Assembly (NCBI RefSeq): GCF_001695835.1
Contig: NZ_MBSO01000067.1
Location: forward strand, 62,001-126,000
Direction: 5' to 3'
Origin: Ensifer sp. LC11
GTDB taxonomy: Bacteria; Pseudomonadota; Alphaproteobacteria; Rhizobiales; Rhizobiaceae
Length of the DNA stretch: 64,000 bases
Shown here: positions 4,305 through 48,620 of the stretch, piece after piece
How the letters are laid out: every line of letters begins with the position of its first letter
How positions within the stretch are numbered: position 1 is the first letter of the stretch
Translations under genes and position numbers: made by a program
Notes under the pieces: model-generated
Told to the model about the DNA's origin: nothing
The model's input: the letters and a program-made list of their open reading frames with translations, nothing else
The model's database searches: none

Positions 4305-6089
4305 TCAGTCGAGCAGGGCCGTGATTGCGGTCGGCACGTCCTCGCCGCGCAGCGCCAGTTCCTCGAACTCGACGACGGCATTGATGTCGGCACCCATGGA
4401 GATGTTGGTGACACGCTCGAGGATGAACTCGATGACGACGGGAACCTGGTGCTCGTCCATCAGCGCCCGTGCACGGTCGAAGGCTTCCTGGAACTCGTTC
4501 GGGCTGCGCACCCGGATCGCCTTGCAGCCGAGACCTTCGGCAACCGCGACGTGGTCGACGCCGTAACCCTTCTCCGCATCGCCCGACGCATTGATGTTGT
4601 CGAAGGCGAGGCTGACCTCGAAGTCCATGTTGAGGCCGCGCTGTGCCTGACGGATGAGGCCGAGATAGGAATTGTTCACGACGATATGCAGGTAGGGCAG
4701 CTTGTGCTGGGCGCCGACCGCGAGCTCCTCGATCAGGAACTGGAAGTCGTAGTCACCGGAAAGTGCGACGATCGTCCGGTCCGGATCGGCGGCGCGAACA
4801 CCGAGTGCTGCCGGCAAGGTCCAGCCGAGCGGGCCGGCCTGGCCGCAATTGATCCAGTTGCGCGGCTTGTAGACGTGCAGGAACTGGGCGCCGGCGATCT
4901 GGCTGAGGCCGATGGTCGAGACATAGCAGGTGTCGCGGCCGAAAGCCTTGTTCATCTCTTCGTAAACGCGCTGGGGCTTCAGCGGTGTCTGATCGAAATG
5001 GGTCTTGCGCAGCATGGTGCGCTTGCGCTCGCGGCACTCTTCGGCCCAGGCGGACCAGTCACGCAGCTTGCCGGCCGTCTTCCATTCGGTCGCGACGTCG
5101 AGGAACAGCTTCAGGGCAGCGCCGGCATCCGAGACGATACCGAAGTCAGGTGCAAAGACGCGACCGATCTGGGTCGGCTCGATATCGACGTGAACGAACT
5201 TGCGGCCTTCCGTATAGGTCGGAACGTTGCCGGTGTGGCGGTTGGCCCAACGGTTGCCGACGCCGAGAACGAAGTCGGAAGCGAGCATGTTGGCATTGCC
5301 GTAGCGATGCGATGTCTGCAGGCCGCACATGCCGGCCATCAGCGGATGATCATCCGGGATCGTGCCCCAGCCCATCAGCGTCGGGATAACCGGGATGCCG
5401 GTGATCTCGGCGAATTCGGTCAGAAGATCGGAGGCGTCGGCATTGATGATGCCCCCACCGGCGACGATCAGCGGACGCTCCGCCTCGTTCAGCATCGCGA
5501 TCGCCTTCTCAGCCTGGGCGCGCGTCGCCTTCGGCTTGTAGGCTTCAAGCGGCTCGTAGGTGTCCGGGTCGAACTCGATTTCGGCGAGCTGGACGTCAAC
5601 CGGCAGGTCGATCAGGACCGGGCCCGGGCGACCGGAACGCATGATGTGGAATGCCTTCTGGAAAACAAAGGGAACGAGCGCCGGCTCCATGACCGTGACC
5701 GCCCACTTGGTGACCGGTGCTGCGATCTTGGCGATATCGACCGCCTGGAAGTCTTCCTTGTCGAGGCGGGCGCGCGGCGCCTGGCCGGTGATGCACAGGA
5801 TCGGGATCGAGTCGGCCGAGGCCGAATAGAGGCCCGTGATCATATCGGTTCCGGCAGGGCCGGATGTGCCGATGCAGACGCCGATATTGCCGTGCTTGGC
5901 GCGGGTGTAGCCTTCCGCCATATGCGAGGCACCCTCGACATGGCGCGCCAGAATGTGGCGGACGGAACCACGCGCCTTCAGCGCCGAATAGAACGGGTTG
6001 ATGGCAGCGCCAGGTACGCCGAAGGCGCAGCCGATGCCTTCCTTCTCCAGAACATAAACAGCCGCGTCAACGGCACGCATCTTAGCCAT
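4305..6089 (-). CDS. gcl: Glyoxylate carboligase (tartronate-semialdehyde synthase)
   Basis: A 594-residue thiamine-diphosphate enzyme that condenses two glyoxylate molecules into tartronate semialdehyde and CO2. The N-terminal ThDP domain carries Val at position 51 ([13 protein letters not shown]), the hallmark replacement of the usual catalytic Glu in Gcl. The C-terminal domain has the GDYDFQF cofactor-binding segment. The length matches the 593-residue E. coli enzyme. The frame stays open upstream across the intergenic region, but the ATG at 6089 has a GAGGAG site and the correct family N terminus. It is first in the gcl-hyi-glxR-gckA unit and diverges from the IclR gene. Confidence 0.96.
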
Positions 6090-8538: not shown

Positions 8539-9773
8539 TGGGTTTTTCCTCCATTCACGACGGACTCGTACCAGGCGACCAGCAGCTGGCGCTCCTCGTC
8601 CGATACGCCGGTGACGTTTGCCGGCGGCATCGCATGCGAACGGCCGGCCTGCAGATAGATTTCACGCGCGTGGTTGGCGATCTCCACGTCCGTCTCGAGC
8701 GTCACGCCCTTCGGCGGGACAACCAGACCTTCCCAGCCCGGCTCCTTGGCATGGCACATGGAACAGCGGCCAAGCACGGTGTCGCGCACCTTCGGAAAGG
8801 CTTCCGCCGCGACGAAGGGCTGCTGCGCGGCCGAGATCTTCTCCTCGGCGCCACCGGCAAGGATCTTCGGCACGGTCGAGAGCCACATGATCGCAACGAA
8901 GAGCAGTGCTGTGACGAGCCAGGTCCAGGTCGGGTTGCCCTTGTCGGCATGGCGGGTGTTGAAATAGTGGCGGATGGTGACGCCCATCAGGAAGACCAGC
9001 GAGGCGATGATCCAGTTGTACTGGGTGCCGAACGCCAGCGGGTAGTGGTTCGACAGCATCAGGAACAGAACCGGCAGCGTCAGGTAGTTGTTGTGGGTCG
9101 AGCGTTGCTTGGCAATCACGCCGTACTTCGGGTCCGGCGTGCGGCCGGCGATCAGGTCACCCACGACCACCTTCTGGTTCGGGATGATGATGAAGAACAC
9201 GTTGGCCGACATGATCGTCGCGGTGAAGGCGCCGAGATGCAGAAACGCCGCGCGGCCGGTGAAGAGCTGCGTGTAGCCCCAGGCCATGCCGACCAGGATG
9301 AAGTAGAGAAGCACCATCAGCTTCGTGTTGTCACGACCGAAGGGCGACTTGCAGATCGTGTCATAGGCGAGCCAGCCGAAGGCGATCGAACCGAGCGAGA
9401 TGGCGATCGCCACCGGCTTCGAGACGTCGAGCACGTTCGGATCGATCAGGTAGAGATCCGCACCGGCGTAGTAGACCAGGCACAGCATGCCGAAGCCCGA
9501 AAGCCAGGTGACGTAGGATTCCCATTTGAACCAGATCAGGTGCTCCGGCATGTTGGCCGGTGCAACCAGGTACTTCTGGATGTGGTAGAAGCCACCACCA
9601 TGCACCTGCCATTCTTCGCCATAGGCGCCGACCGGCAGGCCGGGATGTTTCTTCAGACCAAGGTCAAGGGCGACGAAGTAAAAGGACGAACCGATCCATG
9701 CAATGGCGGTGATGACGTGCAGCCATCTCACGGCAAAGGTCAGCCAATCCCAGGCGATGGCATAGTCGTACAT
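8535..9773 (-). CDS. puuD: Urate hydroxylase PuuD (membrane protein with cytochrome c domain)
   Basis: A 412-residue PuuD-type urate oxidase. An N-terminal region with about eight hydrophobic segments (residues 1-305) is followed by a cytochrome c domain with heme motif CSMCH at 337-341 and a distal Met in HAMPPAN. The family oxidises urate to 5-hydroxyisourate at the membrane, passing electrons to the respiratory chain instead of making peroxide. It heads the puuD-guaD unit and diverges from a LysR gene. No soluble UaZ or HpxO-type uricase is present, so this is the urate step here. Confidence 0.93.
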   Translation of the reverse strand: MYDYAIAWDWLTFAVRWLHVITAIAWIGSSFYFVALDLGLKKHPGLPVGAYGEEWQVHGGGFYHIQKYLVAPANMPEHLIWFKWESYVTWLSGFGMLCLVYYAGADLYLIDPNVLDVSKPVAIAISLGSIAFGWLAYDTICKSPFGRDNTKLMVLLYFILVGMAWGYTQLFTGRAAFLHLGAFTATIMSANVFFIIIPNQKVVVGDLIAGRTPDPKYGVIAKQRSTHNNYLTLPVLFLMLSNHYPLAFGTQYNWIIASLVFLMGVTIRHYFNTRHADKGNPTWTWLVTALLFVAIMWLSTVPKILAGGAEEKISAAQQPFVAAEAFPKVRDTVLGRCSMCHAKEPGWEGLVVPPKGVTLETDVEIANHAREIYLQAGRSHAMPPANVTGVSDEERQLLVAWYESVVNGGKTQ

Positions 9774-9844
9774 GCAATTCTCCCATTTCTCCTCAGGCCA
9801 TTATGTGTCATTGCTGGAGGTCGCGGGAACGTCGCTGCTTCACC

Positions 9845-39685: not shown

Positions 39686-40609
39686 TTACACCGAAACGGC
39701 TTCTGCGACGGCCAGCTCAGCCATTGCGATCGCAGCTTCGCGCGTCTTTGCGGCCGCGATGAAACGGCCGTTGTGGCAAAAGCTTGCACCAGCCACTCCG
39801 CAAGCCGCCTCCAAGTCGCTGTTCGTCAGGCCAGCCCAGGCTGCGGGCAAGTCTGCGCGCAGTTCAAACCCTTCATCCGCCTTGCGAATGCCCGTCAGGC
39901 ACCAGTCACTCTCGCGCGGATGAACGACGAACAACAGGTGATCGGCGCCAGCTTTCACGATGGCTGGACGAAAGGGCATTCCCCTTGGCAGCTCGAGTAT
40001 TCGTCCCTCACCGGCATGGGCGATCTGCTGAAGGACGAGCGCCTCGGCCCTGAGCTTTGCGGCACGCTGGGAGACACTGGCCTCGACGAGCGTGCGGGCG
40101 ATCGCCAAGGCTGCGTGGAAGCCGCGATCGTCGGCCTCCGGGCCTGCCTCGTCGAAAACGGGCTTCAAGGTTTCCAAAAGAGCCGGCAATGCGAGGCCCG
40201 CGAGCGGTCCGAGAAGGGAGGGGTCGAGCGCACCATTGTCAACCAGGTCGACAGGCAGCACGAAGCGAGCGTCGAAGGAGGCATGTACCGCTTCGATATG
40301 ATTTTCAGGAACACCTGAGGCGGCAAGATAGTCGCGGCCATAGTGTTTCCAGATCAGTCCGAACGAACTGTAAGGTTGGCCATCCTCTCGCATCGGGGCG
40401 CCACGCTGATGGTGATCGAAAATCCCGGCGGCGGCGTCATATACCCCCCCGACATCATAAATGATGCGGTCTGCGCCTGGTTTGATCCATTCGGCGGCGC
40501 GACTGCGGATAAGACGAGCCTGCGGAAAGAGCCGCGTGAGAATGACGGTGGACAAAAGTTCGTCGGCGTGGAACCCACCGGAATGCGTAACGAGAAAGTC
40601 TGGGGTCAT
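39686..40609 (-). CDS. MYG1-family protein (DHH-like metal-dependent hydrolase)
   Basis: A 307-residue member of the MYG1/UPF0160 family. Visible are the N-terminal metal-binding motif THSGGFHADELLS, YDVGGVYD and FDHHQRG, which follow the DHH-phosphoesterase pattern. The eukaryotic homologue is a 3'-5' RNA exonuclease; the bacterial role is little known. ATG 40609 fits family N termini; the frame extends 23 codons upstream without a ribosome site. Transcribed alone. Confidence 0.82.
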   Translation of the reverse strand: MTPDFLVTHSGGFHADELLSTVILTRLFPQARLIRSRAAEWIKPGADRIIYDVGGVYDAAAGIFDHHQRGAPMREDGQPYSSFGLIWKHYGRDYLAASGVPENHIEAVHASFDARFVLPVDLVDNGALDPSLLGPLAGLALPALLETLKPVFDEAGPEADDRGFHAALAIARTLVEASVSQRAAKLRAEALVLQQIAHAGEGRILELPRGMPFRPAIVKAGADHLLFVVHPRESDWCLTGIRKADEGFELRADLPAAWAGLTNSDLEAACGVAGASFCHNGRFIAAAKTREAAIAMAELAVAEAVSV

Positions 40610-40935
40610 CCCGATTGGCCTTATGCTTCTTTGATCTAAGGGCGTGTGGGGCACGACATAACCATTGCCTGATGCCACCTCAACCCACTATCGCTCTGTC
40701 GAGCGCGGATCGAACCTCAATCCCGTGCGCAGACGACCTCACCGGGCGGAAGAGGCGGGGATCTCCGTCGCCGAACACTTTACGGGTTTTCAGTGTCACC
40801 TTGAATTGATAGGTTCCCACTATGTTCCGGTCCACCGTACACATGCACGCGCGAACAGTGGCGACGGTCACACGGCCTTGAAGAAGAGCGCCGGGACACC
40901 AGCGGAACAGCAATCTGTCGGAATACGAGGAATTT
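40610..40935. other. 326-bp intergenic region before the helicase gene
   Basis: No gene is supported. A short CGCTCTGTCGAGCG hairpin lies near 40694. The helicase ribosome site (ACGAGGAATTT) ends the region. No clear promoter could be called. Confidence 0.4.
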
Positions 40936-43097: not shown

Positions 43098-44606
43098 TCA
43101 GGCGAAGCGATCGCTTGCGACACCAAAGTAGAATAGCTCCTGAAGCGGAGTGGCCGCGGCGTCCGGAAAGATCACGAACCCGTCCCTCGGGGCGACAACA
43201 GCCTCACCGGAGGCGCGCCGGGCGATCGTTTGGCCTGCAGTGACCGGGTCACCCGTGCGCCAGTCCCCTTCGAGACGGTCTCCCGGCGAAAGGCAGAGAA
43301 CAACGTCGACAAGATGAATAGCCCTGGGATGCACTGCTTCCGGTGCCGGCGAATCGATGATCCCGAGGTGAGCCAATGCGCGCACAATTGCCTGATAGGC
43401 GACGTCGACCGCGCCTGGGTCCTTATGCTGACCGCACTCCAAAGTAAGCCCATAGCCACCTGAGAAGCGCATGTATTCCGCCGTCCCGACGGCGTGCGAC
43501 AACGCGTTTCCGGCTCCGCCGTGTCGCGCCTGTTCGGCAATCGACTTGGCGTACGCGTCGAGCCAGCCGTGGAGGATCAGGCCGGGTCCAAGCCTCACTG
43601 CCAGGCTTGTCTCCAATTCTGCCTTGGAGAAGGGTTGGTTCCCCTTTGTGCTGTTGTCAGGGCCAAGAAATACAAAGGGTTCCCCCGCCGAGCGATAGGA
43701 ATGAATGTCCAACAGGACGTCGTTTTGGCGCAGCAGCGGGCAGAGCGTGTTGGCGACCCGATCCTCGTAGTCCCTTTCGATCGTTACTTCGCACAGGTCG
43801 CGGTTCAGGTTGCGATCCCCCTCGCGGGTTCCCTGTCGATAGGCTTTCCCATTCACCACGGGGACGAACGTAACCTCTCCGCGGCGGACGGCGAGCTCGC
43901 CCGTTCGGCACGCCGTTATCGCTCTCCAAATTGCGTCTGGCCCGCAGGTTTCATTGCCGTGAACTGCTCCGGTAACGAGCAGCTTGGGCCCACGCTGCAG
44001 CCCAGAGAAGCGCACGACCTCGATCGGCGTTCCTTCGTCGGCCGGCTCAGGCAAGATAGAACGAGGTTCAAAATCGATGTCGATCAGCATGCCGGGCCGC
44101 AATCGCCGGACAAGAGCCATGACATCGCCGGCAGCGACCGCCACGCAACCGGCAGTGCCCGCAAAATCGGCCCTTGCTGCGTGGATGAACAGCGCGCTGC
44201 CGCCGCCCATCCTGGCGACGGAATCGTTGAAGCCGATAGGAACGATGACGTCGAACAGGGGCTCGGCACGTTCGCGGGTCAGCCGCTCTGTCGCGCGCTC
44301 GCCTTCATCGGCGTAGACGAGTCGGTTGTAGTTGGCCCCCGCCTCCTCCCAGATCATGTCGGCGGACGCAGGAACGAACGGATAGGCCAGATCACGTGGA
44401 AAATCCGGTCGGGCGACCGGATTGAAAAAGCCGTAGCGTAACGGAAACACGCCAATCGGGGTTCGACCATCGCCTTCCCGCTTGAGCGCTGCCGAAACGA
44501 GACCGGCTCGCCCGACAACGCACGGAATGGCCCAGTCCCCGATCGAGAGGGTACCCTTGTGGCATGGGTCAGCGGATGCAGGAACTCTCACTTTGATGAC
44601 CGGCAC
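43098..44606 (-). CDS. Fusion protein: L,D-transpeptidase-like (YkuD) domain plus AstE/AspA zinc-hydrolase domain
   Basis: Taking the GTG at 44606 as start (502 residues). Residues about 1-180 resemble the COG3786 L,D-transpeptidase type: LKREGDGRTPIGVFPLRYGF, then H142 in ALFIHAARAD and the catalytic-type Cys C154 in TAGCVAVA. After a linker (EPRSILPEPADEG) residues about 195-500 form a succinylglutamate desuccinylase/aspartoacylase domain with zinc motif VHGNE (H216, E219), RNLNRDL and LDIHSYRS. The frame is continuous, with no internal start at the junction. A longer N terminus up to the GTG at 44720 or ATG at 44696 cannot be excluded. No signal peptide is evident with either. The function is unknown, perhaps peptidoglycan peptide or amide trimming. 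Confidence 0.78.
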   Translation of the reverse strand: MPVIKVRVPASADPCHKGTLSIGDWAIPCVVGRAGLVSAALKREGDGRTPIGVFPLRYGFFNPVARPDFPRDLAYPFVPASADMIWEEAGANYNRLVYADEGERATERLTRERAEPLFDVIVPIGFNDSVARMGGGSALFIHAARADFAGTAGCVAVAAGDVMALVRRLRPGMLIDIDFEPRSILPEPADEGTPIEVVRFSGLQRGPKLLVTGAVHGNETCGPDAIWRAITACRTGELAVRRGEVTFVPVVNGKAYRQGTREGDRNLNRDLCEVTIERDYEDRVANTLCPLLRQNDVLLDIHSYRSAGEPFVFLGPDNSTKGNQPFSKAELETSLAVRLGPGLILHGWLDAYAKSIAEQARHGGAGNALSHAVGTAEYMRFSGGYGLTLECGQHKDPGAVDVAYQAIVRALAHLGIIDSPAPEAVHPRAIHLVDVVLCLSPGDRLEGDWRTGDPVTAGQTIARRASGEAVVAPRDGFVIFPDAAATPLQELFYFGVASDRFA

Positions 44607-44924
44607 AGTGACCACCTGGAACCTCGCAGCATTCTGGGGCGCCGTGTGCTCAGATGAACGCACAAAGGTCGCTCCAGCATTTTGGTTCTGGAGCATCTTC
44701 TCCGACGTCGGTGATTCCACCTGAGGACGGGATGCTCACATCTAGAGCTGCGAACCTATATCGGTATCGCGAGATCGACAATGTTGCCCCTTGTTCGCCT
44801 GATAGTGCGCGGCTGCGCTTCGGCGAGCATCCCGAGCGCCAGGCAGTCGACCTTGATAAACTTCGGCATATCGCATCCAACGCTTCCACTATAAGACACC
44901 CGCTTAAACAAATCAGGAGAAGAC
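44607..44924. other. 318-bp region upstream of the fusion gene and a small gene
   Basis: The minus frame of the fusion gene remains open to 44720, so the first 114 bp may be coding. A TATAAG sequence at 44890 could be the -10 box of the small gene starting at 44925; no matching -35 box is obvious. Confidence 0.4.
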
Positions 44925-45131
44925 ATGGAGACCGTGGAAATCAACGGCCGCAGCGATTTCGCCCTTTGGGCAATCGAGCGCGCGCAAGAAATAGTGACCA
45001 TCGAAGGCGCTGCCTTCGCGGTTGCCGCCCGTGACATGAATGAACAAGAGCTGGCAGAAACCGCAGCCGCGCTTGGAAAAGCGATCAGTGACGCGATGCT
45101 CGAAGTTTTCGATGGCTTGATTGCGGGTTAG
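44925..45131 (+). CDS. Small hypothetical protein
   Basis: A 68-residue acidic, mostly helical protein (METVEINGRSDFALWAIERA ... ALGKAISDAMLEVFDGLIAG) without Cys, signal peptide or membrane segment. An AGGAGAAG site sits 3-8 bases before the ATG. The codon pattern fits the genome. No family was recognised. It is isolated between the fusion gene and the copper island. Confidence 0.6.
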   Translation: METVEINGRSDFALWAIERAQEIVTIEGAAFAVAARDMNEQELAETAAALGKAISDAMLEVFDGLIAG

Positions 45132-45521: not shown

Positions 45522-48032
45522 ATGGGATCTGTGACCCCCATTAGAACCAACGATGCCGAGGAATTTTCGGCGACTGCGATGAGTGCCAGTATTCCCGTCG
45601 AGGGCATGACTTGCGCGTCGTGCGTGTCACGCGTCGAAAAGGCGATCCGCGCCGTGCCAGGTGTCACCTCGGCTTCGGTCAATCTCGCGACCGAACGCGC
45701 CGACATCCGCTTCGACGCGACGACCAAATCGGCCGACATCGTCAAGGCGATCGAGAACGCCGGATATGGTGCGGCCGAAGACACCATCGAGCTCACCATC
45801 GAAGGCATGACCTGCGCGTCCTGCGTCGCACGCATCGAAAAGGCGCTGAAGACGGTGCCGGGCGTCACCGAAGCAAACGTCAATCTGGCGACCGAGCGCG
45901 CCTCGGTCCGCGTGACAAGGGGCATCGCCACCGCGGCCGCGCTCGAAGAGGCTGTCCGCGTTGCCGGCTATGCCGCCAAGCGCATCACCGGCGACGAAAG
46001 TGTCGACCGCGAAGGTGAGAAGCGCGAGCAGGAGACCCGAAAGCTCGCGCGCTCCCTGCTCCTCGCCGGCGTCCTGACGCTGCCGATCTTCCTGCTCGAA
46101 ATGGGCTCGCACTTCATCCCGGCCGTGCACGACTTCGTCATGAACAACATCGGCATGCAGGAAAGCTGGTACCTGCAGTTCGTGCTGACGACGCTGGTGC
46201 TCTTCGGCCCGGGTTTGCGCTTCTACCAGAAGGGCGTTCCCGCCCTCTTCCGCCTGGCACCGGACATGAACTCGCTGGTCGCCATCGGTACGTCGGCAGC
46301 CTGGATCTATTCGGTCGTCGCTACTTTTGCGCCGGACTTTTTGCCTGACGGTACAGCCAACGTCTATTACGAAGCTGCTGCCGTCATCGTCACGTTGATC
46401 CTGCTCGGCCGCGTCCTCGAGGCGCGCGCCAAGGGCCGCACGTCGGAGGCGATCAAGCACCTGATGGGGCTGCAGGCAAAGACGGCCCGCGTCATCCGCG
46501 ACGGCGAGACCGTCGAGGTCCCGCTTTCCGACGTGCAGAGCGGTGACACCGTGGTGGTGCGCCCTGGCGACCGGGTTCCGGTCGATGGCAGCGTCATCGA
46601 CGGCAACTCCTATGTCGACGAATCGATGATCACTGGCGAGCCGGTGCCGGTCGAAAAGACCGCAGGCAGCGAGGTGGTAGGCGGCACGATCAACAAGACC
46701 GGCTCCTTCACCTTCCGCGCCACCAAGGTCGGCGCCGACACGGTGCTCGCGCAGATCATCAAGATGGTCGAGCAGGCCCAGGGCGCGAAGCTGCCGATCC
46801 AGTCGCTGGTCGACCGCGTCACGGCCTGGTTCGTGCCGGCCGTCATCGCCATTGCGCTTCTGACCTTCGGCATCTGGCTGGTCTTAGGACCCGATCCGGC
46901 GCTGACCTTCGCGCTCGTCAATGGCGTCGCCGTGCTGATCATCGCCTGCCCCTGCGCCATGGGCCTTGCCACCCCGACCTCGATCATGGTCGGCACGGGC
47001 CGCGCCGCCGAAATGGGCGTGCTCTTCCGCAAGGGCGAGGCGCTGCAGACGCTGCGCAATGCCGCCGTCATCGCCGTCGACAAGACGGGAACCTTGACCA
47101 AGGGACGGCCCGAACTGACCGACCTCGAAACCGCCGCTGGCTTTGAACGTGACAGCGTTCTGGCGCTGGTCGCTGCCGTCGAAACCCGTTCCGAGCACCC
47201 GATTGCCGAGGCAATTGTCGAGGCGGCAAAGGCAAAAGGCCTGGCGATCGCTGATCCGGCCAAGTTCGAGGCCATCCCCGGTTTCGGCGCTAGCGCTGAA
47301 GTGGCGGGCCGCACGGTCCATGTCGGCGCAGACCGGCTGATGGCGCAACTGAATCTCGATGTTGCCGTCTTTGCCGAACAGGCCGCTCGGCTGGGTTCGG
47401 AAGGCAAGAGCCCGCTCTATGCCGCGATCGACGGCAAGCTTGCAGCGATCATTGCCGTTGCCGACCCGATCAAGGAAACGACGCCGCAGGCAATCCGTAT
47501 GCTGCACGATCTCGGTCTCAAGGTCGCGATGATCACCGGCGACAATCGCCGCACTGCGGAAGCTATCGCCGCCAAGCTCGGCATCGACGAGGTCATCGCC
47601 GAAGTCCTGCCCGACGGCAAGGTGGCAGCGCTGAAGAAGCTGAAGCAAGGCGGACGCGCTGTCGCCTTCGTCGGCGACGGCATCAACGATGCGCCGGCGC
47701 TCGCCGAAGCCGATGTCGGGCTTGCGATCGGCACCGGCACGGATGTCGCCATCGAAAGCGCCGACGTGGTGCTGATGTCCGGCGATCTGCTCGGCGTGCC
47801 GAACGCTATCGCCCTTTCCAAGGCGACGATCCGCAACATCAAGGAGAACCTCTTCTGGGCCTTCGCCTATAACGCGGTGCTGATCCCGGTTGCCGCCGGC
47901 GCGCTCTATCCCGGCTATGGCCTGCTGCTGTCGCCGATCTTTGCGGCTGGCGCCATGGCGCTGTCGAGCGTCTTCGTGCTCGGAAACGCACTGCGCCTCA
48001 GGGGCTTCCGGCCCGTTGCGGCGGCGCATTGA
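45522..48032 (+). CDS. copA: Cu(I)-exporting P1B-type ATPase
   Basis: An 836-residue copper pump of the inner membrane. Two N-terminal HMA domains carry GMTCASC (C31/C34 and C98/C101), followed by eight membrane segments, the TGEPVPVEK actuator loop, the metal-path motif IIACPCAMG, phosphorylation site [18 protein letters not shown] and the hinge [16 protein letters not shown]. The CPC motif and hinge make it P1B-1 (Cu+/Ag+). AAGGAG lies 7 bases before the ATG. It is followed 117 bp later by cueR. Confidence 0.96.
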
Positions 48033-48149
48033 AACACTGCCCGGCTTCCCAAGACGTAGCGGAAGCCGGGCAGCCCCCCTATATTCGATCGGACAGGTTT
48101 GCCCGCCTATGCAACCCCAAGGATTGCACGCAGCTCCAAAGGTAAAGTC

Positions 48150-48620
48150 ATGAACATCGGTGAAGTCTCTCGCGCCTCCGGCGTCTCGACCAAAATGATC
48201 CGCTACTATGAGACGATCGGCCTGATCCCCCCGGCCGACCGCAGCGAATCGGGCTACCGCAACTATGGCGACAACGATGTCCATACGCTGCGCTTCATCC
48301 GTCGCTCGCGCGACCTCGGCTTCACCGTCGAGCAGATGACCGATCTCCTGGCGCTCTGGCGCGACCGGTCGCGCGCCAGCGGCGAGGTCAAGAAGATCGC
48401 GCTCGAGCATGTTGAGATCCTGGAGCGCAAGGCCGAAGAACTGAAGGCGATGAGCCGCACACTCAAGCATCTGGCCGCCCATTGCCATGGCGACGCGCGC
48501 CCGGACTGTCCCATTCTTGACGATCTGGCCGATGCCGGCAACACCCCGGCGAAGACAACCGAGCCTGCCCGTTTTGGTGCCGGCGGCATCGACCCGGTTC
48601 GCAACCGGCGGCATGGATGA
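48150..48620 (+). CDS. cueR: Copper-responsive MerR-family regulator CueR
   Basis: A 156-residue MerR protein with N-terminal winged HTH (MNIGEVSRASGVSTKMIRYYE), a long dimerisation helix and the Cu(I)-binding pair C112-x7-C120 in HCHGDARPDC, exactly as in E. coli CueR. After this loop it has a 30-residue tail. It is placed downstream of copA in the same direction and is the obvious activator of the two CueR-type promoters in this window. Confidence 0.93.
   Translation: MNIGEVSRASGVSTKMIRYYETIGLIPPADRSESGYRNYGDNDVHTLRFIRRSRDLGFTVEQMTDLLALWRDRSRASGEVKKIALEHVEILERKAEELKAMSRTLKHLAAHCHGDARPDCPILDDLADAGNTPAKTTEPARFGAGGIDPVRNRRHG

Follow-up and report, generated by a model that had tools for sequence, protein, structure and literature searches.

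A YkuD-AstE/AspA fusion protein of Ensifer and other Alphaproteobacteria, a candidate bifunctional peptidase for peptidoglycan stem peptides

Introduction

In the described systems closest to the protein analyzed here, a fusion of a YkuD domain with an AstE/AspA-type zinc hydrolase encoded by Ensifer sp. LC11 (contig NZ_MBSO01000067.1, positions 62,001 to 126,000; this whole stretch of 64,000 nucleotides is called the window), the counterparts of the two halves are separate proteins. ElsL of Acinetobacter baumannii is a leaderless YkuD protein and a proven cytoplasmic L,D-carboxypeptidase (PMC8649774). Pgp2, Bd1075 and Csd6, the last two represented by structures 7o21 and 4xzz, are likewise L,D-carboxypeptidases (PMC8938487) with a YkuD-type domain; as described, they differ from the fusion in their NTF2 domain, a longer spacing between the catalytic His and Cys and a role in cell shape, and Pgp2 is periplasmic. 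In the published accounts of Helicobacter and Campylobacter, the cut between D-Glu and diaminopimelate (DAP) works alongside a YkuD-type carboxypeptidase (PMC4599014, PMC4220969); the M14 D,L-carboxypeptidases Csd4 and Pgp1, and also MpaA, are proteins of their own, unlike the fusion. Rhizobiales and Rhodobacterales are reported to be without AmpG, and in Agrobacterium muropeptides are imported without it by the ATP-binding cassette (ABC) system YejBEF-YepA (PMC9790009). A similar import is proposed below for relatives of the fusion, with a different transporter, and the available text on YejBEF-YepA describes no fused hydrolase. Finally, DoeB, AstE, AspA and CphZ share a Pfam family with the zinc half and include its closest structures; unlike the fusion, they are without YkuD, and their substrates are N-acyl amino acids or, for the dipeptide hydrolase CphZ, a cyanophycin dipeptide.

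The fusion is predicted from sequence to be a bifunctional cytoplasmic peptidase for peptidoglycan stem peptides, a reading to which we attach about even confidence. A peptide ABC transporter would import DAP-containing stem peptides. The YkuD half, using its Cys and His with water, would take the terminal D-Ala off the tetrapeptide, the L,D-carboxypeptidase step of ElsL, LdcA and Csd6, and the tripeptide would go to the zinc half, where a cut of the gamma-D-Glu-DAP bond, the step of MpaA and Csd4, would yield L-Ala-D-Glu and free meso-DAP (mDAP). Where relatives of the gene stand in an operon, DAP or a DAP-holding compound would induce it through a regulator of the Escherichia coli LysR type, and the DAP would be consumed. 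The cytoplasmic first cut has a precedent, since ElsL performs it as a leaderless YkuD protein (PMC8649774), and the two-cut scheme has precedents in the Csd6/Csd4 and Pgp2/Pgp1 pairs (PMC4599014, PMC4220969). A fuller scheme is put forward tentatively, at somewhat less than even confidence: one polypeptide would carry out both trimming steps, relatives would end a DAP-sensing import operon in bacteria without AmpG, which together would amount to a complete route for consuming or recycling cell-wall peptides, and the zinc half would come from a family of N-acyl-DAP hydrolases whose stand-alone members take the place of DapE in certain alphaproteobacteria. The sequences themselves show the fusion, its conserved active-site residues, the operon in related genomes, the likeness of its regulator to LysR and the DapF paralogue near three Microvirga operons. 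We infer both activities, their substrate and order, the inducer, and that the solitary window copy keeps the function of its operonic relatives. Full-text literature searches of open-licence papers found no description of the YkuD plus AstE/AspA architecture.

The fusion gene in the window and in related genomes

The original prediction had described a YkuD domain and an AstE/AspA zinc hydrolase in one uninterrupted frame with the key residues of both retained, and both statements held. Within an open reading frame (ORF) of 540 codons, Pfam YkuD (PF03734) matched residues 63-215, the N-terminal part (E 1e-9; 39.5 bits against a curated cut-off of 23.4), and AstE_AspA_cat (PF24827, M14) matched residues 244-342, the C-terminal part (E 2.1e-12; 47.4 bits against a curated cut-off of 25). 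The His and Cys of YkuD are present, as are the zinc motifs HGNE, NLNR, DIHS and TLECG. The features of the gene are listed below; models were made with AlphaFold and are given with their predicted local distance difference test (pLDDT) and predicted template modeling (pTM) scores.

43098..44720, minus strand: fused YkuD / AstE-AspA (M14) protein, 540 codons from the first possible start (ORF list, Pfam).
44076..44534, minus strand: YkuD domain of the leaderless type, proposed L,D-carboxypeptidase (Pfam span; domain model pLDDT 87.0, pTM 0.80).
44181..44183, minus strand: catalytic-type His of YkuD (H172 from ATG 44696), invariant in 45 aligned sequences.
44145..44147, minus strand: catalytic-type Cys of YkuD (C184 from ATG 44696) in a T-A-G-C context, invariant in the 45 sequences, with His-x11-Cys spacing.
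43101..44033, minus strand: AstE/AspA-type M14 zinc-hydrolase half with a C-terminal beta-rich part, proposed gamma-D-Glu-DAP (N-acyl-DAP) amidase (Pfam, Foldseek; outer limits by eye).
43959..43961, minus strand: His of HGNE (H246 from ATG 44696), invariant column, zinc ligand by family resemblance.
43950..43952, minus strand: Glu of HGNE (E249), invariant column, zinc ligand by family resemblance.
43701..43703, minus strand: His of DIHS (H332), invariant column, third zinc ligand by family resemblance.
43437..43439, minus strand: Glu of TLECG (E420), invariant column, proposed general base by family resemblance.

The true start, which had been marked for checking, was narrowed to three candidates and not to a single one: GTG 44720 (the longest form), ATG 44696 (with GGAG ending 3 bases upstream) and GTG 44615 (aligned with the Microvirga starts). 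ATG 44696 or GTG 44615 is likelier, and the protein has 505-540 residues depending on the start. No export signal is evident by a crude measure, in agreement with the original prediction: from GTG 44720, the highest 17-residue Kyte-Doolittle mean within the first 60 residues is 1.15, and none of the 40 fused proteins described below has a strongly hydrophobic N-terminus (highest 17-residue mean 1.21). Third-position guanine-plus-cytosine (GC) content is alike for the two halves (0.694 and 0.686) and falls below that of the flanking helicase (0.755) and ATPase (0.816) genes. The full-length model has a mean pLDDT of 84.4 and a pTM of 0.62, and the mutual placing of the two halves is therefore uncertain.

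Relatives were collected by a scan with an alignment of three fusions against one genome per species, which returned at least 574 relatives, and the best 80 loci were kept. These comprise 37 single-ORF fusions, one gene split by an in-frame stop (L046) and 42 zinc domains alone. Together with the window gene and two copies (L022, L023) in another Ensifer genome (G014, taken as Ensifer canadensis), the single-ORF fusions form a set of 40 fused proteins, every one of which matches both Pfam families (E <= 0.001). A sequencing error joining two genes, and relatives that always encode the parts apart, had been named as the ways in which the prediction could fail. As 37 of the best 80 loci carry the same single-ORF fusion, and the same uninterrupted fusion occurs in independent assemblies, neither applies, and a sequencing or assembly error as the origin of the fusion is excluded.

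The fusion gene is accessory, conserved but patchy. Within the genus, full-length matches were found in 2 of 16 genomes, that of the window (G000) and G014 with its two copies; within the family, 7 of 297 genomes and 5 of 109 genera match at E <= 1e-30, one of the seven being a split gene; and a class-wide draw of 385 genomes gave 10 matches, of which 1 is full-length (the window's own genome), 8 are the zinc domain alone and 1 is YkuD alone. Carriers include Microvirga, Rhizobium, Ciceribacter, Mesorhizobium, Phyllobacterium, Pseudochrobactrum, Brucella (Ochrobactrum group), Paracoccus and Haematobacter. Four plasmid records contain at least 80% of the fusion in one place, and a phage origin found no match among 50,697 phage records.

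Three of the collected loci have peculiarities of their own. In Paenochrobactrum gallinarii (L046:7971-9536) one in-frame stop with an ATG directly after it lies between the domains, representing either a split gene or a recent mutation. A contig labelled Bacillus subtilis SK6B4 (L051) clusters with Pseudochrobactrum in the trees of the zinc domain, of YkuD and of LysR alike, and hence appears to be a mislabelled or mixed assembly. The plasmid fusion copy L022 is surrounded by transposase-like genes, recognized by eye (L022:1668-2609, 4819-5547 and 9073-9774), and a GntR/FCD regulator adjoins it.

Operon and regulator of the fused relatives

Gene calls around the fusions followed the longest ORF, a simple rule by which some genes of GC-rich DNA are missed or inverted, and the gene order of a clade of 24 loci from Rhizobium, Brucella and Paracoccus was counted by tblastn. 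The same order was found in 21 of them: a divergent LysR gene, then a beta-lactamase-fold serine enzyme (PF13354), SBP_bac_5, two permeases, two ATPases and, as the last gene, the fusion. Three loci deviate: L040 has a different, distant transporter, L044 lies at a contig end, and L046 is the split gene and has no operon. Across the whole fused set, a transporter gene lies on the same strand within 8 kilobases (kb) upstream in 35 of 40 loci, a count that includes L040, where the only such genes are distant relatives (29-35% identity) lying several kb upstream. LysR is absent from the fetched flanks of all stand-alone zinc-domain loci among the best 80. The operonic PF13354 enzyme (L048:1468-2370 and homologues) has no evident leader, shows SxxK, SxN and KxG-like motifs by eye, and has no PDB relative at E <= 0.1.

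In Microvirga the same transporter precedes the fusion, and genes for an M81 metallopeptidase and an Amidohydro_3 hydrolase lie upstream. When the upstream sequence was read further, a divergent LysR gene and a paralogue of the DAP epimerase DapF were found in three of the four fused regions, the fourth having a recombinase gene upstream. The second DapF genes beside the Microvirga fusion operon are located as follows.

L138:6640-7575: second DAP epimerase (DapF) gene.
L141:12833-13711: second DAP epimerase (DapF) gene.
L142:2957-3814: second DAP epimerase (DapF) gene.

The operonic LysR certainly belongs to the subgroup that holds E. coli LysR and the opine regulators. All 17 clustered operonic LysR proteins match E. 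coli LysR best, with a mean of 42% identity and 223 bits, compared to 30% and 126 bits for NocR, 30% and 94 bits for OccR, and 25% and 40 bits for PgrR (16 of the 17 matching); Microvirga LysR is 42% identical to E. coli LysR and 30-31% identical to NocR and OccR. NocR here denotes the LysR-type gene that neighbors nocP on the Ti plasmid of C58, a name absent from its record. Against PRK11013, the NCBIfam model for E. coli LysR (cut-off 288), the E. coli protein itself scored 590.7 bits and Microvirga LysR 313.2, over the cut-off, followed by two proteins of the other clade, L048 with 281.6 and L023 with 274.7 (both under it, the L023 gene being cut by the locus end), NocR with 202.7 and OccR with 164.0; PgrR was not in the match list. 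The best genome-wide match to E. coli LysR adjoins the fusion operon in 7 of 9 genomes searched, which were mostly chosen with the LysR neighbor already known, and in G317, which has a fusion without this operon, the best match lies elsewhere in the genome. A topology test did not reject that the operonic LysRs and E. coli LysR form one clade (p 0.40), nor two alternatives (p 0.13 and 0.14). E. coli LysR is reported to activate lysA with DAP as its inducer (PMC5002191, PMC6254735), and DAP is the likely inducer predicted for the operonic LysR.

Gene content and regulator also bear on the alternative that survives best, according to which the operon degrades other compounds with D-amino acids or isopeptide bonds (non-ribosomal or microcystin-like peptides, opine-like conjugates) and the fusion is one hydrolase in that process. 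MlrC, an M81 peptidase, is known from microcystin breakdown, and in both Microvirga and Bosea genes for an M81 metallopeptidase and an Amidohydro_3 hydrolase accompany this transporter; OccR and NocR, both opine regulators, fall in the same LysR subgroup, and the trees do not set the operonic regulators apart. Identity and PRK11013 score, however, put the operonic LysR nearer to E. coli LysR than to OccR or NocR, and a DAP epimerase gene adjoins three Microvirga operons. We consider this alternative unlikely.

The zinc half and its stand-alone relatives

The patterns HG[N/D]E, NxNR and DxHS, together with a loose one for a late Glu, were found in all 40 fused proteins and in 40 of 43 other proteins, L046 being counted among the others, and the AstE_AspA_cat profile matched all 55 aligned members (E <= 0.001). 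In a Foldseek search the zinc half matched 3cdx best and DoeB (6twm) next, then mlr6093, CphZ and AstE, with Csd4 from rank 39. Csd4, as described, has an M14 fold like the zinc half, and its cut between D-Glu and mDAP is the one proposed for the fusion; its metal motif is QxxE (PMC4220969), whereas the fused proteins have HG[N/D]E in all 40 cases.

The kinship with N-acyl amino acid hydrolases admits a further alternative, in which the zinc half is an N-acyl-DAP amidase (e.g. an N-succinyl-LL-DAP desuccinylase or a DAP-dipeptide hydrolase) and YkuD feeds it some other D-amino-acid-capped peptide, not the murein tetrapeptide. Its nearest solved structures, DoeB and AstE, are enzymes of that kind, and the genomes with stand-alone zinc proteins point in the same direction. 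Of the eight such genomes in the class-wide draw, one has DapE over the cut-off (TIGR01246, 361.8 bits), compared to 11 of 12 controls without the zinc protein, the twelfth (G351, 361.4 bits) being counted as present (Fisher p 1e-4). The controls were 12 of the 375 no-match genomes, from the top of the list; G543, whose two DapE matches stay below the threshold (219.5 and 206.6 bits), was treated as being without DapE, and G390 and G698 are less than 90% complete. DapD is over its cut-off in five of the eight genomes, four of which are among the seven without DapE. One stand-alone zinc gene (L155:5965-6834) adjoins dapD (L155:6835-7686) and another (L156:5891-6790) is one gene away from it (L156:7889-8791), while a third (L154:6165-7070) abuts a gene for a pyridoxal phosphate-dependent decarboxylase (TIGR03099, 295.9 bits; lysA, 248.2 bits; both under cut-off). 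N-succinyl-LL-DAP and gamma-D-Glu-mDAP are both N-acyl-DAP compounds with a carboxyl-bearing acyl group, and one type of active site could therefore serve both. The zinc domain, like the regulator, points towards DAP, which also favors the main reading. It is possible, judging from these gene distributions, that the stand-alone zinc proteins replace DapE in some alphaproteobacteria; no prior description of an N-acyl-DAP hydrolase family or of such a DapE replacement was found in the open-licence literature. For the fusions themselves, the two genomes checked (G000 and G014) have a DapE of their own, and the operon encodes peptide import, not DAP biosynthesis, which makes this alternative quite unlikely.

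The YkuD half

Classical exported L,D-transpeptidases carry the motif H-x14-17-[S/T]HGC, which the fused YkuD domains do not. His-x11-Cys with T[A/S/Q]GC was found in 38 of the 40 fused proteins, and a looser pattern gave the same spacing in the other two; the domains thus depart both from the transpeptidase motif and from H(S/G/D)x14-19C, the motif published for Csd6 and relatives (PMC4599014). An exported transpeptidase was rejected, there being no evident leader and no HGC motif. Searched against the sequences of the PDB, the YkuD profile matched four chains at E <= 1, namely Pgp2 twice (8e-5), Bd1075 (7o21, 2.4e-4) and Csd6 (4xzz, 0.06, over a short stretch), so that Csd6, Pgp2 and Bd1075 are its sole matches at that threshold. 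An Ala after the catalytic His is common to the window copy and Bd1075 as described. Foldseek matches of the YkuD domain model are weak and mixed, the best (E 1.4e-3) falling short of E <= 0.001, and include Pgp2, B. subtilis YkuD, mycobacterial transpeptidases and Csd6.

The comparison with ElsL follows the description given in its paper (PMC8649774). ElsL and the fusion have in common a leaderless YkuD domain, which the fused proteins show by the crude hydrophobicity measure, a conserved Cys, a presumed cytoplasmic location and a proposed tetra- to tripeptide step. They differ in that ElsL consists of YkuD without further domains, whereas the fusion has two. ElsL-type activity takes D-Ala off the murotetrapeptide and not off the pentapeptide. 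The search for ElsL orthologs in that study was limited to single-domain proteins of 105-200 residues; since longer proteins were dropped, the two-domain fusions with their 505-540 residues could not appear in it.

That the YkuD half is instead a true cytoplasmic transpeptidase, exchanging or joining D-amino acids while the zinc half trims the product, is highly improbable. YkuD is a transpeptidase family by name and transpeptidases are among the Foldseek matches, but the [S/T]HGC motif is lacking and the His-x11-Cys loop is short, leaderless YkuD proteins have a proven hydrolytic precedent in ElsL (PMC8649774), and the PDB profile matches at E <= 1 are all carboxypeptidases. Of the cytoplasmic ligation/hydrolysis pair envisaged in the original prediction, hydrolysis of cell-wall recycling peptides is the part best supported by the related loci, and nothing was found for ligation.

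History of the two domains

A single clade (100/100) unites the fused YkuD domains and that of the split gene L046, and 19 leaderless YkuD proteins that stand alone in related genomes fall outside it. In the zinc-domain tree, the stand-alone zinc proteins from Bosea, Microvirga brassicacearum and Vineibacter/Reyranella branch within the fused ones, and the fused label consequently needs seven changes. Because the fused YkuD forms a single clade, later losses of YkuD are the simplest explanation, and a single fusion followed by such losses would be the simplest account of both trees, the root of the zinc-domain tree being uncertain. The least probable alternative, a very doubtful one, is that the solitary window copy is what remains of the operonic enzyme, in decay or put to another use, as the lack of an operon, transporter and LysR around it and its long end branch in the zinc-domain tree (0.58) might suggest, for its active-site motifs are all intact, its frame is open over 540 codons and four other fusion loci are also without the transporter. 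The window's genome additionally encodes a stand-alone leaderless YkuD protein (L002, G000:C26:25743-26177), with similar matches in other listed genomes of the genus.

Evidence against the proposed function, and its implications

Several observations weigh against a bifunctional, DAP-releasing peptidase. In terms of context, the fusions of the window, L022, L024 (where upstream sequence extends over only about 2.2 kb), L025 and L067 have neither such a transporter nor LysR nearby, and no gene resembling E. coli LysR was found in the window's genome at E 1e-35. Of 13 Microvirga genomes searched, 7 have a second DapF, three of them beside the operon and four away from it (L143-L146), while six are without it, and the Bosea region L140, a longer stretch whose zinc domain stands alone, contains no LysR and no DapF. 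Regarding the regulator, PRK11013 is the best model of NocR and OccR too, and the inducer could thus be another amino-acid conjugate; the first LysR tree joins E. coli LysR with NocR and OccR (83/99), not with the operonic LysRs, and a tree with three Microvirga LysRs added joins these with NocR and OccR (83/74). On the YkuD side, the x11 spacing is shorter than the x14-19 published for Csd6 and relatives, and the fold cannot separate carboxypeptidase from transpeptidase, the Foldseek matches being weak and mixed. The cytoplasm of A. tumefaciens is described as seemingly without L,D-carboxypeptidase activity (PMC9790009), and hence, if that species has a leaderless YkuD protein, such proteins of this group need not have the activity. 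For the zinc half, HHalign found no kinship to E. coli MpaA (probability 0.7%, 21 columns), and three of the seven genomes without DapE lack DapD as well, so that the absence of DapE in those three may reflect gaps or a different pathway. Among 14 fusion genomes, 12 have no S66 LdcA; this lends no support, since all four zinc-alone genomes are without it too (16 of 18 in total). The window's genome (G000) has no S66 LdcA. Caulobacter crescentus, another alphaproteobacterium, is reported to have no LdcA homologue (PMC13046382).

If the proposed function is correct, the fusion would be a candidate for the missing stem-peptide trimming steps in Rhizobiales and Rhodobacterales, linking in one protein two reactions performed by separate proteins elsewhere, and the operon of its relatives would have a testable inducer. 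It would also suggest a substrate for proteins whose annotation goes no further than succinylglutamate desuccinylase/aspartoacylase, and possible substitutes for DapE, which acts in lysine and cell-wall biosynthesis.

Neighboring genes in the window

An ORF of 68 codons that has a good ribosome-binding site (AGGAG) runs divergently from the fusion gene at 44925-45131 on the plus strand. It is followed on the same strand by a heavy-metal (copper-type) P-type ATPase (45522-48032) and then a MerR-like regulator (48099-48620), both recognized by eye, and a MYG1/UPF0160 family protein (Pfam PF03690) is encoded at 39686-40678 on the minus strand.

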